From: Isosphaeraceae bacterium
Lineage (GTDB): Bacteria; Planctomycetota; Planctomycetia; Isosphaerales; Isosphaeraceae
Reading direction: 5' to 3'
NCBI GenBank assembly: GCA_025356475.1
Contig: JANXSX010000094.1
Coordinates: forward strand, 1-40,559
DNA: 40,559 nt
Shown piece after piece: positions 2,810 to 19,026 of this stretch (positions are counted from its first letter, which is position 1; every line of letters begins with the position of its first letter). A program made the position numbers and the translations under genes. The notes under the pieces were generated by a model. The model did not search any database and was not told the DNA's origin. It saw nothing but the letters and a program-made list of their open reading frames with translations.

Positions 2810-4126
2810 ATGTCTCCGACAAAGAGTTCGAGGGCGAGACGCGACGTCGTTCGGCGTAATTCGAGCCGCCGCGAGACGACCTATCCCTGCATAATCCTGG
2901 GGGCAGGGTGCGCCGGGTTGAGCCTGGTGTGGAACCTGCTCGAGCTTGGATTCGACGAACCGATCCTTGTGGTCGACCGTCGCCACCGGTTCGAGAACGA
3001 CCGGACCTGGTGCCTCTGGGACGTCGAGCCGACCCCGTTTTCCGACCTCGCCACGCACTCCTGGACGCGCTGGGTGGTGCATGACGGCCATCACGAGGCG
3101 GTCGCCGCCTGCCCCGAGTACCCGTATTTGCGAATTCGATCAGCCGACGTCTATCGCCGGGTTCTTGCCCGCTTGGCCTCGGCACCCAACGTCACTCTCG
3201 CCCTGGGGTGCCCGATCCTGGGCGTTCGCGAGACGGCCGATCGGGTAGAGGTCGCCACGTCCGGCGGCGAATTCGCCGGCCTCCGCGTATTCGACAGCTC
3301 GCGGCGAGGTCACCAGATCGCGTCGGTCGGCACGGGCCGCCGCCCGGCGTCGTTACTCCAGCACTTCTTCGGTCGAACGATCCGTGTCGACCGCCCGACG
3401 TTCGACCCGTCGACCCCGTCGCTGATGGACTTCCGGGCGTCGCAGGCCGACGGCCCCCACTTCGTCTATCTGCTGCCTCTTTCGGAGACCGAGGCGTTGG
3501 TCGAAAACACCTACCTCTTCCCGTTCACCCCCTCTGCCGATCGGCACCGGCGTGAGATCGCTGAGTACCTCTGCATGCGCTACGGGCTGCACCCGGGGAG
3601 CTGCGAGGTGCTGGAGGAGGAGTCGGGGGCGATCACGATGACCACGGCCTCGATCCCGGACGCGACGGGCTCGCGGGTCACGCCGATCGGCCTGGCCGGT
3701 GGTGCGGCGCGTCCTTCGAGCGGCTACGCGTTCCTGCGAATCCAGAGACAGGCCCGGGCCCTGGCTCTGCGGGTCGCGGCCGGGGACGATTCAGGTGAGG
3801 GGGGAGCCCTCCGCCCGCTCGGGTCACGCAAGTATCATTTCTTCGACGCCGTGTTCCTCCGAGCCCTGGCCGATCGACCCGATCTGGCCCCTCGAATCTT
3901 CGCCCAGATGTTCGAGCGGGCCGAGCCCGCCGCCGTGGTCCGGTTCCTGGGCGAGCGGAGTACGCTGCTCGACGACCTGCGGATCGTGGCGGCCCTCCCT
4001 AAGTGGCCGTTCCTCACGGCGGCCGTCCGCTCGGCCCCGGATTGGCTACCTCCGCCGCTCGGACAGCACCCGAGCGGTGGCGGCCCGATCCCACCCGCCC
4101 GCAGGTCGACCCTTGGCGAGGCCTGA
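2810..4126 (+). CDS. crtY: lycopene beta-cyclase, CrtY type
   Basis: Flavoprotein that converts lycopene to beta-carotene, the substrate of Blh. The 438-aa chain starts with a basic segment and then a Rossmann dinucleotide-binding motif, ILGAGCAGLSLVWNLLE (about residues 28-44), followed by the acidic strand end VVDRR. The block NDRTWCLWD (near residue 64) is the CrtY-type cyclase signature. A second conserved block FVYLLPLSETEALVENTYL lies near residue 223. The start ATG at 2810 follows GAGG by 8 bases. Gap to blh is 10 bp, so crtY is the second gene of the retinal operon. The upstream carotenoid genes (crtE, crtB, crtI) are not in this window, so the cell must encode them elsewhere. Confidence 0.92.
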   Translation: MSPTKSSRARRDVVRRNSSRRETTYPCIILGAGCAGLSLVWNLLELGFDEPILVVDRRHRFENDRTWCLWDVEPTPFSDLATHSWTRWVVHDGHHEAVAACPEYPYLRIRSADVYRRVLARLASAPNVTLALGCPILGVRETADRVEVATSGGEFAGLRVFDSSRRGHQIASVGTGRRPASLLQHFFGRTIRVDRPTFDPSTPSLMDFRASQADGPHFVYLLPLSETEALVENTYLFPFTPSADRHRREIAEYLCMRYGLHPGSCEVLEEESGAITMTTASIPDATGSRVTPIGLAGGAARPSSGYAFLRIQRQARALALRVAAGDDSGEGGALRPLGSRKYHFFDAVFLRALADRPDLAPRIFAQMFERAEPAAVVRFLGERSTLLDDLRIVAALPKWPFLTAAVRSAPDWLPPPLGQHPSGGGPIPPARRSTLGEA

Positions 4127-4396: not shown

Positions 4397-5341
4397 TTAC
4401 CGCACCAGATCCTCAGCGGGTGCCCGGCGGCTCCGCGATTCCATCTCGGCCTGAAACGCGATGATCGAATCGGCGATCGGTCCGAAGAGGGGGATCAAAC
4501 CATGCTTGCGCGCCAAACCTTGATAATTCAAGATGCTTCGACCACCCACGAAGACCGGTACGTCACGAATGAGTGAGAGTTCTTTGAACCGCTTGTTGAT
4601 ATTACGGGAAAGGACGAATGAGAGCCCGATCGCGTCCGGCTTCCAGGCGAGAGCGGCCTTCTGATATTCGGACACAGGAAGATCCACGCCGAGATCTAGC
4701 GCCCGCCAACCGGCGAGTTCGACCAGGACGCCGAACATCAACGCTCCCCCCTGGTGACGGTCACCTTGCACGGTCCCCACCAAAACGATCCGCTTCGGGT
4801 TGGGATTGGCTCTCTGCGCCGTTTCGAGCATGTGGTCGAGCTTCCTCCGCAGGAAGCCGGTTACGGTCCTCTCCTGGTAGATCGAGCAGTCGCGGCGGTA
4901 CCAGCGGTCACCGATATCCGTCATTGCTGGGTTGATTACAGTCGTGATCAAGTCGAGCTGGCTCATTTGTTTGGCCAGCTTATCATAGATCTGGTCGGCA
5001 CCTTCGAGATCCGCGCTGGCGAGGCGATCGACCAGGATCTCGAACATCGCCCGTTCCGCACCCTCAAAGCGGGGTTCGGATTGGACGGCATCGAGTACGA
5101 GTTGACCGGACCGAACCGACTCGATCAGGTTGCCGATCGGCTCGCCACCCCGTGCCAAATCCGCGACCTTGCGGATGACGTGAACCTGATCGGCAGAAAA
5201 GCGGCGGTGTCCGGAAGGGGATCGGGCCGGCACGGGAAACCCATAACGGCGTTCCCAAACTCGCAACGCGTGGCAACTGACCCCCGTGAGCTTGCTGACC
5301 GCCGCAATGGAATAAGAAGCGTCACACGCAATTTTGCTCAT
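4397..5341 (-). CDS. MerR-type regulator with cobalamin-binding domain (CarH/LitR-like)
   Basis: Predicted DNA-binding repressor that senses adenosylcobalamin and, in the family, light; known homologues control carotenoid genes. Residues about 10-76 are a MerR winged helix (SKLTGVSCHALRVWERRYG, then SGHRRFS). Residues about 95-175 form the helical cap, with W147 and E157 spaced as the conserved Trp and Glu that contact the adenosyl group in CarH. Residues about 184-300 are a Rossmann cobalamin-binding domain with GDRHQGG (D194, H196, G199: DxHxxG, base-on His ligand). Odd: the residue after the Trp is Tyr148 and the one after E157 is Arg158, where Thermus CarH has His132 and His142. The gene is convergent with crtY and faces the rhodopsin cassette, so that cassette is its obvious target. 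The start ATG has GGAGA 10 bases upstream. Confidence 0.9.
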   Translation of the reverse strand: MSKIACDASYSIAAVSKLTGVSCHALRVWERRYGFPVPARSPSGHRRFSADQVHVIRKVADLARGGEPIGNLIESVRSGQLVLDAVQSEPRFEGAERAMFEILVDRLASADLEGADQIYDKLAKQMSQLDLITTVINPAMTDIGDRWYRRDCSIYQERTVTGFLRRKLDHMLETAQRANPNPKRIVLVGTVQGDRHQGGALMFGVLVELAGWRALDLGVDLPVSEYQKAALAWKPDAIGLSFVLSRNINKRFKELSLIRDVPVFVGGRSILNYQGLARKHGLIPLFGPIADSIIAFQAEMESRSRRAPAEDLVR

Positions 5342-5538: not shown

Positions 5539-7731
5539 CTAAACGAACCCTATGATCACTTCTTGAGCCCCCTTCAAATCAAGGGCCCTTGAAGCGGTAA
5601 CCTTGGTTTGCAACGCGAGCGACAAGAACGGTTCATACTTCTCAGCATCCGTTCCGACAAGGTCGCTGGCGATCGCCTCAGGTGTGGGAAGATTCCCCGC
5701 CAACTCGCGATAACCGGCAACTACCTGCTTTTCTGTACACTTCTCGAATCGAAGGGCCGGGCCGTCGATGGCGACATGGAACCGGCTACCCATCTTACCC
5801 AGGGCCATGAGAGTCATATGCGTGCGCGATCCTGCCCAGGGGAACCAGAGCAGACTCGACCCATCGTTGACGAAACCGCTCCTGCCCAGACCTGCTGCGG
5901 TGGCTGAGCTACGCGCTGTAGTCAACATCCGCTGGGCGGTTTCATCGAGATAGACCGGCATATCTTTGCGTATGAGTAAGCTTTGCATCATCTTGTGAAC
6001 GATTTTATGGATATCCCCACTGACCCCCGGTTGAAACTGCGGGGACCGTCCCCCAGGGGAGGGTTCGACCTCGATCGACTTCCGTTCGGAATCGACTTGT
6101 AAGATCTTCCACCGCTTGCCCGCAAGGATCAGGTACCCTTCGAGCTTCATCCATCCATCAACGGCCACTTGACCAATGGAGCGCCCTGCGCAGCTTACGC
6201 GGTAATCCTCTGGCACCTGAAACGAGACATAGAATTGATGGCTCCGAACAATTTTCTCCCCCTTGATCCCCAGGATCAACAACCCTTCATATGATTGCTC
6301 GATCAGGTCGGCAGCACCAAGGTCGCGTAACACTTGCACAAATATGGACTTGCCCACATGAGGGAATCCACCCGACTCGACCAATGCTGCATAAGCTTCG
6401 GCGGCTGCGACTCCACTCCGTTCAGCGATCAGGCTGAGTATCTGCTGCACGAGTGTGGACAGGTGAAGTTGACTCAGGTCGGGAGGCTCGATTTGCTTGG
6501 GCTTCGCCAGCATCAACTCGACGGTTGCAACCCCTCGCAGGAAACCTGGGAAGATCTGATTGACAAGTGTCGATTCTTTCGATGGACTAAACTCTTCCAG
6601 GAACATCCGCAGGATCGACGGTGCCCCCGACTTGCGACCACTCCGGCCTACTCGTTGAACCAATGAGTTTACGGAGAATGGCGCATCGATCTGACCAACC
6701 ATTTCTACCTCGCCCACATCAATGCCCATCTCCAGAGTGCTGGAGCAGAATGTGGCAGTCGGACGGTTCGACTTCAAGTCCTGCTCGGTATCCTCACGCT
6801 CGGCACGCGAAAGCGAGCCGTGATGGATTCGGAAGTTGTTCGCCTTGTGCAGCCGCTCCGACTCTCGTCGAGCGTAGTCGGCACAAAGCTCCAACGTCAC
6901 CTTACGATTCCCAAAGATCAGGGCGGTCTTGCCATCAAAACGCGTATAGACTTCTGATTCTAAACTTGTGTCCATATCCTCGTCAGTGGGCTTGCTGGGC
7001 TTGGTCAAGAACCCATGAACCCGGATCTTGAGTTCGCGCTCGTCACCCGAACCTTGGATGAGGCAGACCTGGCGGTCTGTCCGGGCTTTGAGCCACTGAC
7101 AGGCCAGATCCATATCCCCCAAGGTGGCCGAGAGGCCGACTCTGCGGGGCCTCCCTCCCGCGATTTTCGTGATCCTCGCCATCAAGCTGTGCAGATGCGC
7201 TCCACGCTCGCTGCCGAAGAAGGCGTGCATCTCATCGACGATGATGAACTTCAAATCACCAAACAGATGAGCAAGCTTTCTGGGATGGTTGACGAACAGT
7301 GACTCGATCGATTCAGGAGTGATCAGGAGCACTCCCGAAGGCTTGTCCAACAGAGCGGACTTGGCACCGGAACCGACATCTCCATGCCAGCGATAGACTG
7401 GGATCTCAAGCAGTTCACAGAGGTTCTCGACCCTCCGAAACTGATCGTTAATCAGCGCTTTGAGCGGGCAAATGTACAGGGCTTGGACGCCGGGATCGAA
7501 CGACCCGGCCAGGGTTGAGAGTATCGGCAGGAACGCTGCTTCGGTCTTGCCCCCGGCGGTCGCTGCCGAGACCACGACGTCGCCCCCACCGTCGAGAATC
7601 GTCTGGATCGCATCGATCTGGATCGGTTTCAGGCTCTTCCAGCCCATCTTGTGCAGGGTCTCGCGCACCTTCAGGTGGAGCCGATCAAAAGCTTGTGCCG
7701 ACCCTTCGTTTGTCCGAATATGATCACTCAT
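5539..7731 (-). CDS. sngC: Shango defence helicase SngC (Lhr/BrxHI-like superfamily 2)
   Basis: ATP-dependent superfamily-2 helicase, predicted to unwind or move along nucleic acid as the effector of an anti-phage system. The 730-aa chain has the Q-like region KPIQIDAIQ (near 35), Walker A ATAGGKT (57-63), motif II DEMH (166-169), motif III SAT (201-203), a TLEMGIDV block (about 332-339) and motif VI QRVGRSGR (359-366). The remaining ~350 residues are a C-terminal extension without motifs I recognise. The nearest families are Lhr-like and the BrxHI helicase of type 2 BREX. It is the last of three tightly packed genes; the start ATG lies 5 bp after the sngB stop. The combination with a TerB protein and a BrxD-like ATPase identifies Shango; the helicase alone would not. 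Confidence 0.85.
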   Translation of the reverse strand: MSDHIRTNEGSAQAFDRLHLKVRETLHKMGWKSLKPIQIDAIQTILDGGGDVVVSAATAGGKTEAAFLPILSTLAGSFDPGVQALYICPLKALINDQFRRVENLCELLEIPVYRWHGDVGSGAKSALLDKPSGVLLITPESIESLFVNHPRKLAHLFGDLKFIIVDEMHAFFGSERGAHLHSLMARITKIAGGRPRRVGLSATLGDMDLACQWLKARTDRQVCLIQGSGDERELKIRVHGFLTKPSKPTDEDMDTSLESEVYTRFDGKTALIFGNRKVTLELCADYARRESERLHKANNFRIHHGSLSRAEREDTEQDLKSNRPTATFCSSTLEMGIDVGEVEMVGQIDAPFSVNSLVQRVGRSGRKSGAPSILRMFLEEFSPSKESTLVNQIFPGFLRGVATVELMLAKPKQIEPPDLSQLHLSTLVQQILSLIAERSGVAAAEAYAALVESGGFPHVGKSIFVQVLRDLGAADLIEQSYEGLLILGIKGEKIVRSHQFYVSFQVPEDYRVSCAGRSIGQVAVDGWMKLEGYLILAGKRWKILQVDSERKSIEVEPSPGGRSPQFQPGVSGDIHKIVHKMMQSLLIRKDMPVYLDETAQRMLTTARSSATAAGLGRSGFVNDGSSLLWFPWAGSRTHMTLMALGKMGSRFHVAIDGPALRFEKCTEKQVVAGYRELAGNLPTPEAIASDLVGTDAEKYEPFLSLALQTKVTASRALDLKGAQEVIIGFV

Positions 7732-7736
7732 GAGTA

Positions 7737-9176
7737 TTAGAGCTTGAATGAGGTCAGATCGTCATCTCGGTCTGGCTTGACGATCGCTGTGGGTGGGGTT
7801 TCGCTCTTGCTAACTGGCTCTTCGGGCTCTGCCTCGGGGTCGGGAGTTGCTTCCATTTTGGTCGATTTGAGCATGGTCCGCCAGTCGAAACCGGGGTTCT
7901 GTTCCAGGACCGAGAGCAGGCCGACGAACCCCTTGACCGAGTCACGTGGGGTCCGAAAATACTCGGCTCCGAGGGTTCCCTGGCAATGAACCATGAACGC
8001 CTTCATGCCTTCATCATCAATGAGATACTTGCTGGGATCGCCTGACGCGAAGACTTCTCGAATGTTCCGGAGCATCACGAAAAGTTCCTCGGGGGTCAAG
8101 TTCGCGAGCCGGATCACCGGGCCTGAAAGGTCCTTCAGGCCCCCTGCCGAGAAGCTATTATCCGCCAGCCGGGTTGCGAGCGCTTCATAGCTGAAGAGAC
8201 CACGGCGGCGGTCTTCCAGGAAGGTATCGGTCCCACCGAATAGGAAGCCGATGCCCGTCGCTCCGCCTTGCAACGTGTCATTGAGGATCCGCAACAGGGC
8301 TTCATAGTTGGCGTTGCGAGCCTGAGAACTCTGAAGACGGTGCGAGAGGACGCCCATCTCATCAATGTTCACCAACAGCCCGGAATAGCCCGCCATGCGG
8401 ACGAACACCGCAAACAGCTTCAAATAGTCATAGAATTGACTATCCTCAATGATGGAGCGAACCCCAAGATCGGCCTTGGCCTCGGTCTTGGTCCGATACT
8501 CGGCGCGAAGCCAACGCAGCGCCGAGCTTGTCAGCAACTCTTTGCTCTGTTGATACCCTTCGACATACTTACCGATCACATTGGCGAAGTCATGTCCACT
8601 CACGAGATCTTCGAGTGGCTTCAACTGATCATTCACCGCCTTGACGACATCCGAATCCACCCCACCCGTGGCCCGGACCTTTTGATCGAGGTCGGAAACC
8701 CATCGCTCAACCACGCTTGTCAGCGCTCCTCCATCCGGCTTGGCTTTAGTGGCGAGGTTCTGCATCAGCTCTGCGTAAAGGGCTCGCGCCTGGCCACCAC
8801 TCCCATGGAGACGATGATCGGTGGTGATATCTGCTTGCGCAACCACAAACTTCTGTTCCAACGCGGCAACTCTCGAAAGGTTCAGGAAGAAGCTCTTGCC
8901 GGCACCATAGCGGCCGATAATGAACCGGATGCTCGCCGACCCGTCTTTGACCCGATTCAGATCGGTCAGGATCGCAGCGACTTCATCGAGTCGTCCAACT
9001 TGCAAATGACGAATACCGATCCGAGGCACCACCCCCGCGCGAAGTGATTGAAGGATCGCGTCACGCTCACGCGGCTTGATCGGATTCGCCCCGACCGATG
9101 GGGCTGACGACGCGGACGCAGGGGTAGAGCTTGGAACGATGGGTGCTTGATCGTGACTCATTGCGATTCGACTCAC
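7737..9176 (-). CDS. sngB: Shango ATPase SngB (BrxC/BrxD, DUF2791 family)
   Basis: P-loop ATPase related to BREX BrxD. From the GTG start (479 aa) a disordered Ser/Pro-rich N-terminus (about 10-32) leads to the family block LRAGVVPRIGIRHLQVGR (45-62), Walker A GRYGAGKS (88-95) and Walker B VNIDE (269-273). After about residue 440 the tail is Pro/Glu-rich and probably unfolded. The GTG start abuts the sngA stop codon (TAAGTG); an in-frame ATG 15 bases later (9161) is an equally good start. Overlap-style packing with sngA and sngC implies translational coupling and a shared complex. In BREX, BrxD works with a Lhr-like helicase, so SngB probably loads or controls SngC. That role is inferred. Confidence 0.85.
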   Translation of the reverse strand: MSRIAMSHDQAPIVPSSTPASASSAPSVGANPIKPRERDAILQSLRAGVVPRIGIRHLQVGRLDEVAAILTDLNRVKDGSASIRFIIGRYGAGKSFFLNLSRVAALEQKFVVAQADITTDHRLHGSGGQARALYAELMQNLATKAKPDGGALTSVVERWVSDLDQKVRATGGVDSDVVKAVNDQLKPLEDLVSGHDFANVIGKYVEGYQQSKELLTSSALRWLRAEYRTKTEAKADLGVRSIIEDSQFYDYLKLFAVFVRMAGYSGLLVNIDEMGVLSHRLQSSQARNANYEALLRILNDTLQGGATGIGFLFGGTDTFLEDRRRGLFSYEALATRLADNSFSAGGLKDLSGPVIRLANLTPEELFVMLRNIREVFASGDPSKYLIDDEGMKAFMVHCQGTLGAEYFRTPRDSVKGFVGLLSVLEQNPGFDWRTMLKSTKMEATPDPEAEPEEPVSKSETPPTAIVKPDRDDDLTSFKL

Positions 9177-16132: not shown

Positions 16133-16708
16133 TCAGATCGGTGGCAAGGGCTCGACCCCGAGGTCACGGATCGTGACCAGAGAGACGAACTCGTGGCCCT
16201 TCTCGGCGAAGGCCGCGATTGCCCCTTCGAGCCGATCGAGCACAACGATGATACAGGCGACCTTACAGCCGAACGCCTCAACGGCCGCGACCGCCTGGAG
16301 CGATGAACCCCCCGTGGTGGCCACATCATCAAGAATCGCGACTGTCATCCCAGGCGTCAGAGGCCCTTCAACCAGCTTGCCCGTGCCGTGCCCCTTCGCT
16401 TCCTTGCGGACCAAGAAACCACGTAATCCTGCACTCTGCCCATGTAAGCCCGCGACCGCCAAGGTGGCACCGACGATGGGGTCGGCCCCCATGGTCAGAC
16501 CTCCGACTGCCTCGACTTTGGGGTAGTTGGCCAAGATCTCCAGGACACCCGCCGCAATGACGCTCGCCCCTTCCGCCGAAAGCGTGACCGTTCGCCCATC
16601 GACGTAGTAGTGCGACGTCCGACCGCTCGCCAACGTGAAAGTACCCGTCCGAAGGGCGTCTCGTTTGAGCAAGGCGATCAACCGAGCCCGATCATATCCT
16701 GTCGCCAT
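16133..16708 (-). CDS. pyrE: orotate phosphoribosyltransferase
   Basis: Converts orotate and PRPP to orotidine 5'-monophosphate in pyrimidine synthesis, cytoplasmic. From the ATG at 16708 (191 aa, usual size) it has the substrate-binding FTLASGRTSHYYVDGR block (about 24-39), a GGLTMGADPI block, the loop RKEAKGHGTG (about 107-116) with the catalytic Lys region, and the PRPP-binding motif VAILDDVATTGGSS (about 128-141). GAGG precedes the ATG by about 6 bases; the frame is open to 16813 but the extra residues are not family-like. Single gene flanked by convergent and divergent neighbours. Confidence 0.95.
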   Translation of the reverse strand: MATGYDRARLIALLKRDALRTGTFTLASGRTSHYYVDGRTVTLSAEGASVIAAGVLEILANYPKVEAVGGLTMGADPIVGATLAVAGLHGQSAGLRGFLVRKEAKGHGTGKLVEGPLTPGMTVAILDDVATTGGSSLQAVAAVEAFGCKVACIIVVLDRLEGAIAAFAEKGHEFVSLVTIRDLGVEPLPPI

Positions 16709-17076
16709 GAATGCCTCAGTTTCCAAAGTCGTCACTTGAAGAGTGGAAACCGCAACCCGATGGTGTGCGTCCTCAGACCCCGCCTGCGTTCTAGGCCTAT
16801 CCCCTTCGAGCATACCAGGAGAGGCTCTCCAGCCTCAAATTCGAGGGTCTCTCCAGGCAAGATTTCCACGAAATCGATCGACACCAACGTGGATCAAATC
16901 GCCCACAAAATCGTTCAGATCGCCCTTCCCAATCGTCCAAGTGGGCGGATTGGAATCGAGTCGGGTGGATTTTGTCTAAGATATTTTGTAATTATTTTCT
17001 GCAAACCCCTTTCCTTGGGAGGTTGTCTAAGTTATTATTAAAACGTCCAAACCGACCACACGAGTTAAATCGTTCC
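16709..17076. other. AT-rich control region between pyrE and the second cobalamin-type regulator
   Basis: About 370 bp without a gene. The right third (16970-17045) is much richer in A and T than its surroundings and holds two copies of TTGTCTAAG (see the repeat entry). It probably contains the promoter and operator of the downstream regulator and, on the left, the pyrE promoter. Confidence 0.5.
16972..17031 (+). repeat. direct repeats TTGTCTAAG, 51 bp apart
   Basis: TTGTCTAAG occurs at 16972-16980 and 17023-17031; the match extends as TTGTCTAAGnTAT. The 51-bp spacing is about five helical turns, so both copies face the same side of the DNA. They lie 46-105 bp upstream of the regulator's ATG in an AT-rich stretch, as expected for operators of an autoregulated multimeric protein. 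Function is inferred. Confidence 0.5.
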
Positions 17077-17997
17077 ATGGCCAATCGTGAGACACTCTTG
17101 AAGACGCAGCAGGTCGCAACGGCCTTAGGCGTCGGTGTAAGCACGATTAAGCGGTGGGTCGATGCTGGGGAACTGAAAGCAACAAGGACGGTGGGCAAGC
17201 ATAGGCTCATCTCGTTGAGCGAGGCGCTCCGGTTTGCTGGCAAGGCGGGTCATTCCACTGCGGCGTTAGAGCTGCTTGGTCTGGAACTGGCGAATCCGAT
17301 CTTGGGCATGCCTCACATTGACCAGGATCTCTGCGATCGCTTGGTTGAGGCTCTTCGACAAGGACGCTCAACGGATGCACGGCAACTGATCCACCAGGGT
17401 TATATTGCGGGTGAAGGGGCTGTCGGTCTGAGCGATAACCTGATCCGTCCGGTGATGGAGCAAATTGGTCACGGTTGGATGATGGGTTCGCTTGATGTTT
17501 TTCAAGAACATGAAGCAACACAAGTTCTGATTTCGACGATCACAGAACTAATCATCCAGGTCACCAAAACCCAACTCGACCGAAACTGTCTGGCAATAGG
17601 TGCAGCTCCTGAAGGTGATCACTACAGCCTGGCAGGTCTGTTAGGGCAACTTGTTTTGTGTGAGCAAGGGTGGGAAGTACGCAACCTTGGATCGAATCTG
17701 CCACTTCGCTCATTGGCGTTAGCAGTCGAAGAATACCGACCTCGGATGGTATTCCTTTCGGTGAGTTACATTACAGATACCGATAGCTTCATTACAGAGT
17801 ATGGACTCTTTTACGAGGTAGCGTCCAGGATGGACGTTGCTGTGATGCTGGGGGGTCGGGCTTTGTGGTCCGACCTACGTACGAAGCTGGTTTACGCCAG
17901 TTTCGGAGATCGTATGGCCCATCTCGCTGAGTTTGCCCGCCGGCTCTTGCCGTCGTCAGCCAGCCCACGAGTTGCGAGCCAGTCCAGCGCCATTTGA
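17077..17997 (+). CDS. HTH regulator with cobalamin-binding-type sensor domain
   Basis: A 306-aa predicted transcription regulator. Residues about 8-52 form an excisionase/MerR-like helix-turn-helix (TQQVATALGVGVSTIKRWVD, then VGKHRLISLSEALRF). Residues about 85-165 are a helical cap with W134, E144 and H145 spaced as the CarH Trp, Glu and His. Residues about 172-295 look like a Rossmann cobalamin-binding domain (PEGDHYSLAG with H182, then LGSNLP and ALGG-like MLGGRALW). The His is kept but the DxHxxG pattern is not exact: Gly replaces the acidic residue two before, Leu the Gly three after. So B12 binding is less certain than for the protein at 4397-5341. A sigma factor gene follows 72 bp later on the same strand, suggesting a sensor-sigma pair. 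Confidence 0.8.
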   Translation: MANRETLLKTQQVATALGVGVSTIKRWVDAGELKATRTVGKHRLISLSEALRFAGKAGHSTAALELLGLELANPILGMPHIDQDLCDRLVEALRQGRSTDARQLIHQGYIAGEGAVGLSDNLIRPVMEQIGHGWMMGSLDVFQEHEATQVLISTITELIIQVTKTQLDRNCLAIGAAPEGDHYSLAGLLGQLVLCEQGWEVRNLGSNLPLRSLALAVEEYRPRMVFLSVSYITDTDSFITEYGLFYEVASRMDVAVMLGGRALWSDLRTKLVYASFGDRMAHLAEFARRLLPSSASPRVASQSSAI

Positions 17998-18069
17998 ACG
18001 ATGGATCGGGGTACTTGGCAACAGTCCTCGTAACCCGCGAAAGCGTGGCGAGGCGGAAGGAACGGCACG

Positions 18070-19026
18070 ATGCGGACCATGCGACGAGCCGGTGACGCGG
18101 ACGGCTTCACCACACTCGATGGCGTCGAAACTCAGGTTCTGGGTGCGAAACGCGAGCGAGAATTGCTCAAGTCGTTGGGTGAGTGCAAACGAAAGATGGC
18201 CGATGCACTCGCCGTGATGCCAGGGGGCGAACAGAGCCCAACCCAAGGGCTGGCTCAGTCCATCGCCATGTACTCTGCTGGCCACGGCCCGACCGAAGCC
18301 AACCTTGGTGCTGTGTTCAACCGATATTGCGAGTTGCGCGGTCAGTTGGCGATGGCAAACATGCGACTTGTTGCACATGTCGCAAAACGTTTCCGAGACC
18401 GAGGCCTGAACTATTCGGATTTGATTCAGGAAGGCTTCTGCGGCCTGCTCGAAGCGATCGACCGCTTCGACCTCACTCACGAAACCAAGCTCGCGACCTA
18501 CGCGACTTGGTGGATTCGCCAGGCGATGCAACGAGCGGTCGCTGCGGGGGCCTACCCAGTCCGTCTCAGCCCTCGGCACCTCCGGCAGCTCGCCCAGAAC
18601 CAGGATGAACTCGACTGCGGTACGCTTCCCGCAAAAACCCAGGGAACGGCCCCAGCCTCCGCCGAGATGATCCACCGGATCCATGCCGCAACGCGGCCCA
18701 CCATCTCGCTCGACGCCACAATGGATAGCGATTCCAGCTTCACGATGCTCCAGACCATGAGTGACCCTGAAGGGGATCGCACGGGTGATGTGGACATGGA
18801 TGAAACAATCGGTAAGTTGATGGATTCGCTTCGACCTCGCGAGCAAGAAGTGCTCGCCCTCCGCTTCGGCCTTGGTGGCAAGACCAAGCTTTCGCTCAGT
18901 CAGGTTGGCAAAGTCTTGCTCGTGAGCAAGGAACGGGTCCGCCAGATTCAGGACCGAGCCCTCGAAAAGTTGCGGATCGTCGCCGCCGAGCACAACATGG
19001 AAGACTCGCTCGCTTTCGGCCTGTAA
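18070..19026 (+). CDS. sigma-70 family RNA polymerase sigma factor (group 2/3 type)
   Basis: A 318-aa primary-like sigma factor that directs RNA polymerase to a promoter set. Region 2 is clear: NMRLVAHVAKRF (2.1), DLIQEGFCGLLEAIDRFD (2.2), then KLATYATWWIRQAMQRAV (2.3-2.4), followed by a region 3 start. Region 4 at the C-terminus has LRPREQEVLALRFGL (4.1) and an HTH ending ERVRQIQDRALEKLR (4.2). The N-terminal acidic domain of RpoD is missing, so it is an alternative factor, not the housekeeping one. The start ATG has AAGGA 8 bases upstream. It lies 72 bp after a cobalamin-type regulator, which may control its expression or activity. Its regulon cannot be told from here. Confidence 0.92.
   Translation: MRTMRRAGDADGFTTLDGVETQVLGAKRERELLKSLGECKRKMADALAVMPGGEQSPTQGLAQSIAMYSAGHGPTEANLGAVFNRYCELRGQLAMANMRLVAHVAKRFRDRGLNYSDLIQEGFCGLLEAIDRFDLTHETKLATYATWWIRQAMQRAVAAGAYPVRLSPRHLRQLAQNQDELDCGTLPAKTQGTAPASAEMIHRIHAATRPTISLDATMDSDSSFTMLQTMSDPEGDRTGDVDMDETIGKLMDSLRPREQEVLALRFGLGGKTKLSLSQVGKVLLVSKERVRQIQDRALEKLRIVAAEHNMEDSLAFGL

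Follow-up and report, generated by a model that had tools for sequence, protein, structure and literature searches.

CarH and class I LitR proteins are AdoCbl photoreceptor repressors. In Streptomyces coelicolor, LitR is coupled to a sigma factor of the ECF type, LitS. CarH is defined by the motif Wx9EH together with an axial-His motif (PMC8156234), its operator is made of 11-bp repeats, TnnACA (PMC9304148), and CarA is described as keeping the His motif and having lost the Trp of Wx9EH (PMC9304148). Published work also gives GxxW, EH, GxxH, and GxxxP as the signature of light-responsive CBDs (PMC11796333), describes BldC as binding 9-bp direct repeats AATTxxxxC head to tail (PMC5859096), and counts phrB and folE among the light-induced genes of the Pseudomonas class II LitR system (PMC9758184, which also cites the LitS paper by title).

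Here, we describe a gene pair from an Isosphaeraceae bacterium in which a regulator related to these proteins stands directly upstream of a sigma factor gene. Coupling of a B12-type regulator to a sigma factor is known already; what is new is the type of sigma factor, the period of the operator, and the loss of the axial His. An earlier note on this DNA had supposed that the unit might be undescribed, and searches of open-access literature (most subscription papers lie outside that scope) brought up no description of such a sensor-sigma unit, or of any B12-type light regulator, in Planctomycetes.

Gene layout and conservation of the pair

The window—the whole stretch of 40,559 nucleotides analysed, which is contig C120 of a 5.9 Mb genome—carries the sensor gene and the sigma-70 gene on the same strand, 72 bp apart, according to the window annotation and a domain profile search:

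16133 to 16813, reverse strand: divergent phosphoribosyltransferase (pyrE-like) open frame, from the domain profile search
17077 to 17997, forward strand: sensor gene, 306 aa, with HTH_17 (7-49), a four-helix B12-binding_2 domain (86-155), and a Rossmann B12-binding-like domain (174-262)
18070 to 19026, forward strand: sigma-70 family factor, 318 aa, with regions 2 and 4 detected and a long N-terminal part and linker
4397 to 5341, reverse strand: the window's other MerR-B12 regulator, CarH-like, with the GDRH axial motif kept and ER in place of EH; an internal control outside the unit

Coordinates and domains confirm what had been proposed earlier, a sensor with HTH and B12-type domains 72 bp before a sigma-70 gene, and the regulator at 4397-5341 makes it the second cobalamin-type sensor of the window, as also stated. 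The sensor had been taken to begin at 16972, but the TTG there is simply where the open frame first offers a start codon; the starts of relatives align with the ATG at 17077.

Pfam detected regions 2 and 4 of the sigma factor and, at E values up to 1, neither region 1.2 nor region 3; RpoD models align across the stretch between regions 2 and 4. Aligned over 236 aa with the RpoD of the same genome (L151), which has all regions, the protein shows 34% identity, and its AF2 model is weak (pLDDT 68.5). The arrangement resembles LitR-LitS in that a light-type MerR regulator is coupled to a sigma factor; it differs in that LitS is an ECF sigma, whereas the protein found here is RpoD-like in regions 2 and 4. 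Its length of 318 aa and a score of 160.9 bits with an RpoD-type C-terminal model uphold the distinction from LitS drawn previously and indicate that it is not an ECF sigma. The assignment to "group 2/3" may hold: regions 2 and 4 and a length much greater than that of an ECF sigma support it, whereas the lack of Pfam matches to regions 1.2 or 3 does not, and by sequence group 3 appears likeliest.

We surveyed 45 Isosphaeraceae genomes, the window's own included, and found the sensor in 35 of them, at 38 loci (eight weak paralogue rows with 27-34% identity and the second row of a single frame in G012 were left out of this count). A sigma factor of the same family adjoins the sensor at 36 of the 38 loci, directly downstream on the same strand in 33 and divergently in three (one in G002, two in G009); the two loci with no neighbouring sigma are in G013 and G014:C202. 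The earlier note had staked its proposal on the genes being neighbours in relatives, and this they are. Because the 27 tandem sensors of the sensor tree form a single clade (support 100/99), the unit has been inherited together. The sigma gene was the only conserved operon partner seen in the family comparison, and a homologue of the divergent phosphoribosyltransferase frame lies upstream at 14 of 20 loci compared. The earlier note had guessed the family to be Isosphaeraceae; the relatives that the sensor profile recovered bear this out, among them Tautonia sociabilis, Aquisphaera insulae, and MAGs carrying the label Isosphaeraceae.

The sensor is missing from ten of the 45 genomes, seven of which still encode a sigma factor (E up to 1e-70). 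In G011 (L171, 2084-4111), the phosphoribosyltransferase and sigma genes are still neighbours and both sensor and operator are gone; judged by its sequence, this is a natural loss of the sensor with the sigma retained, so the sigma would not be strictly dependent on the sensor.

Promoter and operator

The region upstream of the sensor gene contains the following elements, all given on the forward strand:

16908 to 16926, forward strand: distal operator-like site, AAATCGTTC AGATCGCCC T, with three core mismatches, 132 bp upstream of the proximal operator
16972 to 16980, forward strand: first copy of TTGTCTAAG, exact, not conserved
17010 to 17015, forward strand: -35-like element TTTCCT, with CCCC in front, 17 bp before the -10 (family TTnYCn)
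17023 to 17031, forward strand: second copy of TTGTCTAAG, exact, inside the promoter spacer, not conserved
17033 to 17038, forward strand: -10-like element TATTAT (family consensus TAnnAT)
17040 to 17058, forward strand: proximal operator, made of the 9-bp direct repeats AAAACGTCC AAACCGACC and a closing A, immediately 3' of the -10
17067 to 17075, forward strand: additional half-site AAATCGTTC, which keeps the 9-bp register and lies just ahead of the ATG

Across the family, TAnnAT is followed by five bases and then by CGTYCAAAnCGTYCA, so that the layout amounts to two 9-bp repeats AAAnCGTYC. In the window, the repeats AAAACGTCC-AAACCGACC occupy 17040-17057 in 9-bp tandem, the core CGTCCAAACCGACCA (17044-17058) has one mismatch against the family pattern, and half-sites at the place matching that before the ATG also occur in L003, L004, and L012. 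The operator lies directly 3' of the -10 in all 23 aligned loci (of 29), where the invariance of TAnnAT itself is by construction, the alignment having been anchored on it; L007 and L008, near copies of L006, and L027, L028, L029, and L031, whose elements were judged unfitting, were left out. A scan for the canonical sigma-70 promoter consensus found none, the -35-like element included.

In the 45 genomes, the 15-mer CGTYCAAAnCGTYCA has 43 exact matches, compared with seven for the reversed pattern, and 31 of the 43 lie no more than 700 bp upstream of a sensor, every one in the orientation of the gene. When tandem CGTYC was counted by period, 23 of the 29 upstream regions had it at period 9 and one at period 13; periods 7, 8, 10, 11, and 12 gave none, and stretches of equal size within the genes had none at any of these periods. 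Six of the 29 loci have no exact period-9 pair. At 13 sigma loci without a sensor, no operator was found with up to one mismatch, and the operator therefore goes with the sensor. Its position directly after the -10 would fit use by a repressor.

The 12 exact matches away from a sensor were considered as a wider direct regulon in Isosphaeraceae, and this was rejected. None of the nine inspected (L037, L038, L047, L048, L049, L052, L053, L058, and L060) has a -10 in front, several appear to fall within coding frames, and with seven matches in the reversed control we take them as background.

A good distal copy of the operator is present in many relatives, mostly 95-155 bp upstream. Across 14 Isosphaeraceae values, the proximal-distal spacing tends towards whole helical turns, with R 0.75 at a fitted period of 11.25 bp (simulated p 0.0015, fitting included) and p 0.045 at a period of 10.5 bp. 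The values were entered by hand, the register was chosen where repeats are triple, and kinship was treated only by dropping near-equal values within a genus; we read the spacing as no more than a hint of looping.

The earlier note had instead pointed to the two TTGTCTAAG repeats before the sensor gene and asked whether they are conserved. Both copies are indeed exact and lie 51 bp apart, but TTGTCTAAG is absent, even with one mismatch, within 300 bp of the sensor start at all 28 related loci; the AAAnCGTYC operator is conserved in its place, and TTGTCTAAG is thus not the relevant signal. The repetition also looks like chance: when the 257-bp intergenic stretch was simulated with a first-order Markov model, 19% of the versions held a repeated 9-mer, as did 43 of 157 tiles of the same length cut from the window. 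We rejected TTGTCTAAG as an operator and, its two exact copies notwithstanding, give that reading almost no credence.

Sensor protein and its axial position

The operator sets the sensor apart from CarH and class I LitR: its period is 9 rather than 11 bp, and tandem repeats of the CarH type (nnnnTnnACAn) were found in none of the 29 upstream regions. Both the layout of the repeats, AAAnCGTYC here and AATTxxxxC in BldC, and the DNA-binding domain recall BldC, to whose structure (PDB 6ama) the sensor HTH aligns with an E value of 5.6e-4. Residues R26, W27, and H42 of the sensor are spaced as R30, W31, and H46 of BldC; R26 and H42 are invariant in A1 and A4, and W27 is nearly so in A4. The NCBIfam models for CarH and BldC score the sensor at 56.9 bits (cut-off 400) and 30.8 bits (cut-off 77), and BldC differs in having no sensory domain. 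These likenesses suggest that the sensor may bind the 9-bp repeats head to tail in the manner of BldC.

The AF2 model of the sensor (pLDDT 93.3) predicts a CarH-like fold, matching CtMerR of Chloracidobacterium first (8JBT, 8JBS; Foldseek E 1.4e-15) and T. thermophilus CarH (5c8e) next; CtMerR is the best match by sequence, too (phmmer E 3.5e-31). The Rossmann B12-binding domain, which Pfam scores at 25.4 bits, under its cut-off of 32.1, is present in the model, and the sensor thus lacks the feature that marks LitR classes II-V, namely absence of this domain. With CarH and class I LitR, it shares the HTH, four-helix bundle, and Rossmann domain, Wx9EH, and a promoter-overlapping site (PMC9304148, PMC8156234).

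The difference lies at the axial position. Tyr183 occupies the place of the axial His in the window's sensor, and among the 29 Isosphaeraceae sensors counted this residue is Tyr in 27, Ser in two, and His in none; in 56 other relatives, it is Tyr in 42, Ser in six, and His in two (fragments and distant rows L124, L139, L140, L141, L144, L146, and L147, as well as near copies, were dropped). The motif D/ExHx2G/P...SxT/V...GG is accordingly incomplete, its His present in 0 of 29. Wx9EH (W134-H145) is kept, with W134, E144, and H145 in 29 of 29, and with S228 and GG counted in, each of these is retained in 26 to 29 of 29. Of the published light signature, GxxW (G131/W134, 29/29), EH (E144/H145, 29/29), and GxxxP (G205, 27/29; P209, 29/29) are found, and GxxH is not, because the Co-ligating His is lost. 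The other regulator of the window keeps GDRH, so the loss of His is specific.

Wx9EH without the axial His makes the sensor, by sequence, a third motif combination. CtMerR, its best match, keeps His204 as lower ligand (PMC11796333); CarA and class II LitR likewise have B12 domains with lost or unused parts, but CarA shows the reverse pattern, His motif without Trp (PMC9304148), and class II LitR is described in PMC9758184 as without the Rossmann domain that the sensor has. The term "cobalamin-type" used earlier is therefore apt for the predicted CarH-like fold and less so for the ligand, since absence of the axial His in 29 of 29 makes cobalamin binding doubtful. In the putative pocket there may be cobalamin, either with Tyr or with no residue as its lower ligand, a different corrinoid, or no ligand at all.

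Wider distribution, proposed mechanism, and alternatives

A profile search found relatives of the sensor (E up to 1e-25) in 67 of 343 genomes across the phylum. Many of those inspected keep the operator upstream and have no neighbouring sigma; other relatives form divergent pairs with sigma genes, which represent two or more additional lineages, and the operator often lies between the paired genes. In the sigma tree, the proteins of the f2 genomes (L070-L073, L075, L081) and those of L112, L117, L119, L126, L127, L130, and L132 grouped apart from the Isosphaeraceae clade, each separate group on a well supported branch, although long branches and midpoint rooting make the deep placements unsure.

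In relatives elsewhere in the phylum, the operator persists next to genes for photolyase or fasciclin, next to folE, or next to other sigma genes. Among neighbours of relatives (121 of 141 listed proteins scanned), sigma factors were counted 11 times, fasciclin nine times, and GTP cyclohydrolase and amine oxidase twice each. Photolyase genes adjoin the relatives in L063, L088, and, outside the phylum, L137 (Myxococcaceae), and two family sensors (G009:C426 and G014:C202) have a photolyase gene within a few kb on the same contig. Such neighbours, together with the light induction of phrB and folE in Pseudomonas, lead us to favour light or photo-oxidative stress as the signal, the link being one of association. 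At 30 Isosphaeraceae photolyase loci, no operator was found with up to one mismatch (two mismatches gave nine matches, against two for the reversed control), so any control there would be indirect; a sigma-specific promoter that would support indirect control was not found.

In L137, the sensor relative has an operator-like site (one mismatch) upstream and the photolyase gene downstream, and horizontal transfer of the system is possible. One Isosphaeraceae MAG has a Mn-catalase gene (L118, 4117-4998) close to a relative of the sensor, which fits oxidative stress.

We consider it probable, though well short of assured, that the pair is an autoregulated repressor-sigma operon responding to light or photo-oxidative stress. 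The sensor would oligomerise head to tail through its BldC-like HTH on the 9-bp repeats that its own promoter carries immediately 3' of the -10, would bind the second operator copy upstream as well, and would so block transcription of sensor and sigma. A signal received through the CarH-like domain, most likely light or photo-oxidative damage, would release it, and the freed operon would make the sigma factor, which would drive response genes elsewhere in the genome. The pairing, operator, promoter position, 9-bp period, and missing axial His are read from sequence and the CarH-like fold from a model; repression, release by light, and the targets of the sigma are the inferred steps.

The loss of the axial His in 29 of 29 sensors also accommodates a B12-independent repressor in the style of CarA or class II LitR, in which the domain only oligomerises and a partner (an antirepressor or LOV protein) or a chemical signal brings release; according to PMC9758184 and PMC8156234, CarA does not need B12 for its action, and a LOV protein releases class II LitR. 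We regard this as a tenable second choice that is rather less than an even bet, since 26 to 29 of the 29 sensors retain each of W134, E144, H145, S228, and GG, unlike Trp-less CarA, class II proteins have no Rossmann B12 domain (PMC9758184), and the sigma is the only conserved operon partner seen in the family. Retention of the B12 fold would suit a sensor of corrinoid level rather than light, reporting B12 supply while the sigma adjusts metabolism; this we think unlikely, given that relatives have photolyase, fasciclin, folE, and Mn-catalase as their neighbours and not B12 genes and that the window has no Rfam match such as a cobalamin riboswitch. Quite unlikely, too, is that the sensor is an anti-sigma factor acting directly on the sigma protein, with the operator setting only the level of the sensor: close pairing with several sigma lineages speaks for it, but many relatives have sensor and operator with no adjoining sigma, and the sensor HTH is complete.

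Taken as a repressor-sigma operon, the unit suggests a light or photo-damage response so far undescribed in Planctomycetes, which would gain a concrete switch for light or photo-stress whose operator is defined. A chemical question arises as well: with Tyr in place of the cobalt-ligating His, can a pocket of the CarH type work while its remaining light-signature residues are retained? A bolder version, which we hold to be fairly improbable, is that of a new class of corrinoid photoreceptor with Tyr (or no residue) for the axial His, which controls a non-ECF sigma by way of a BldC-like 9-bp repeat filament and has been coupled several times in evolution to separate sigma lineages across Planctomycetota.

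Two sensor relatives stand side by side in one genome (L066, 2534-3460; G088:C96:20542-22280). Elsewhere in the window, the CarH-like regulator at 4397-5341 (reverse strand) lies near beta-carotene dioxygenase-like and lycopene cyclase genes (1660-2799 and 2810-4126, forward strand), and a protein at 7737-9176 (reverse strand) matches the BREX BrxD model at 172.1 bits, under the cut-off of 350, with a DEAD-box helicase (5539-7731) adjoining it.
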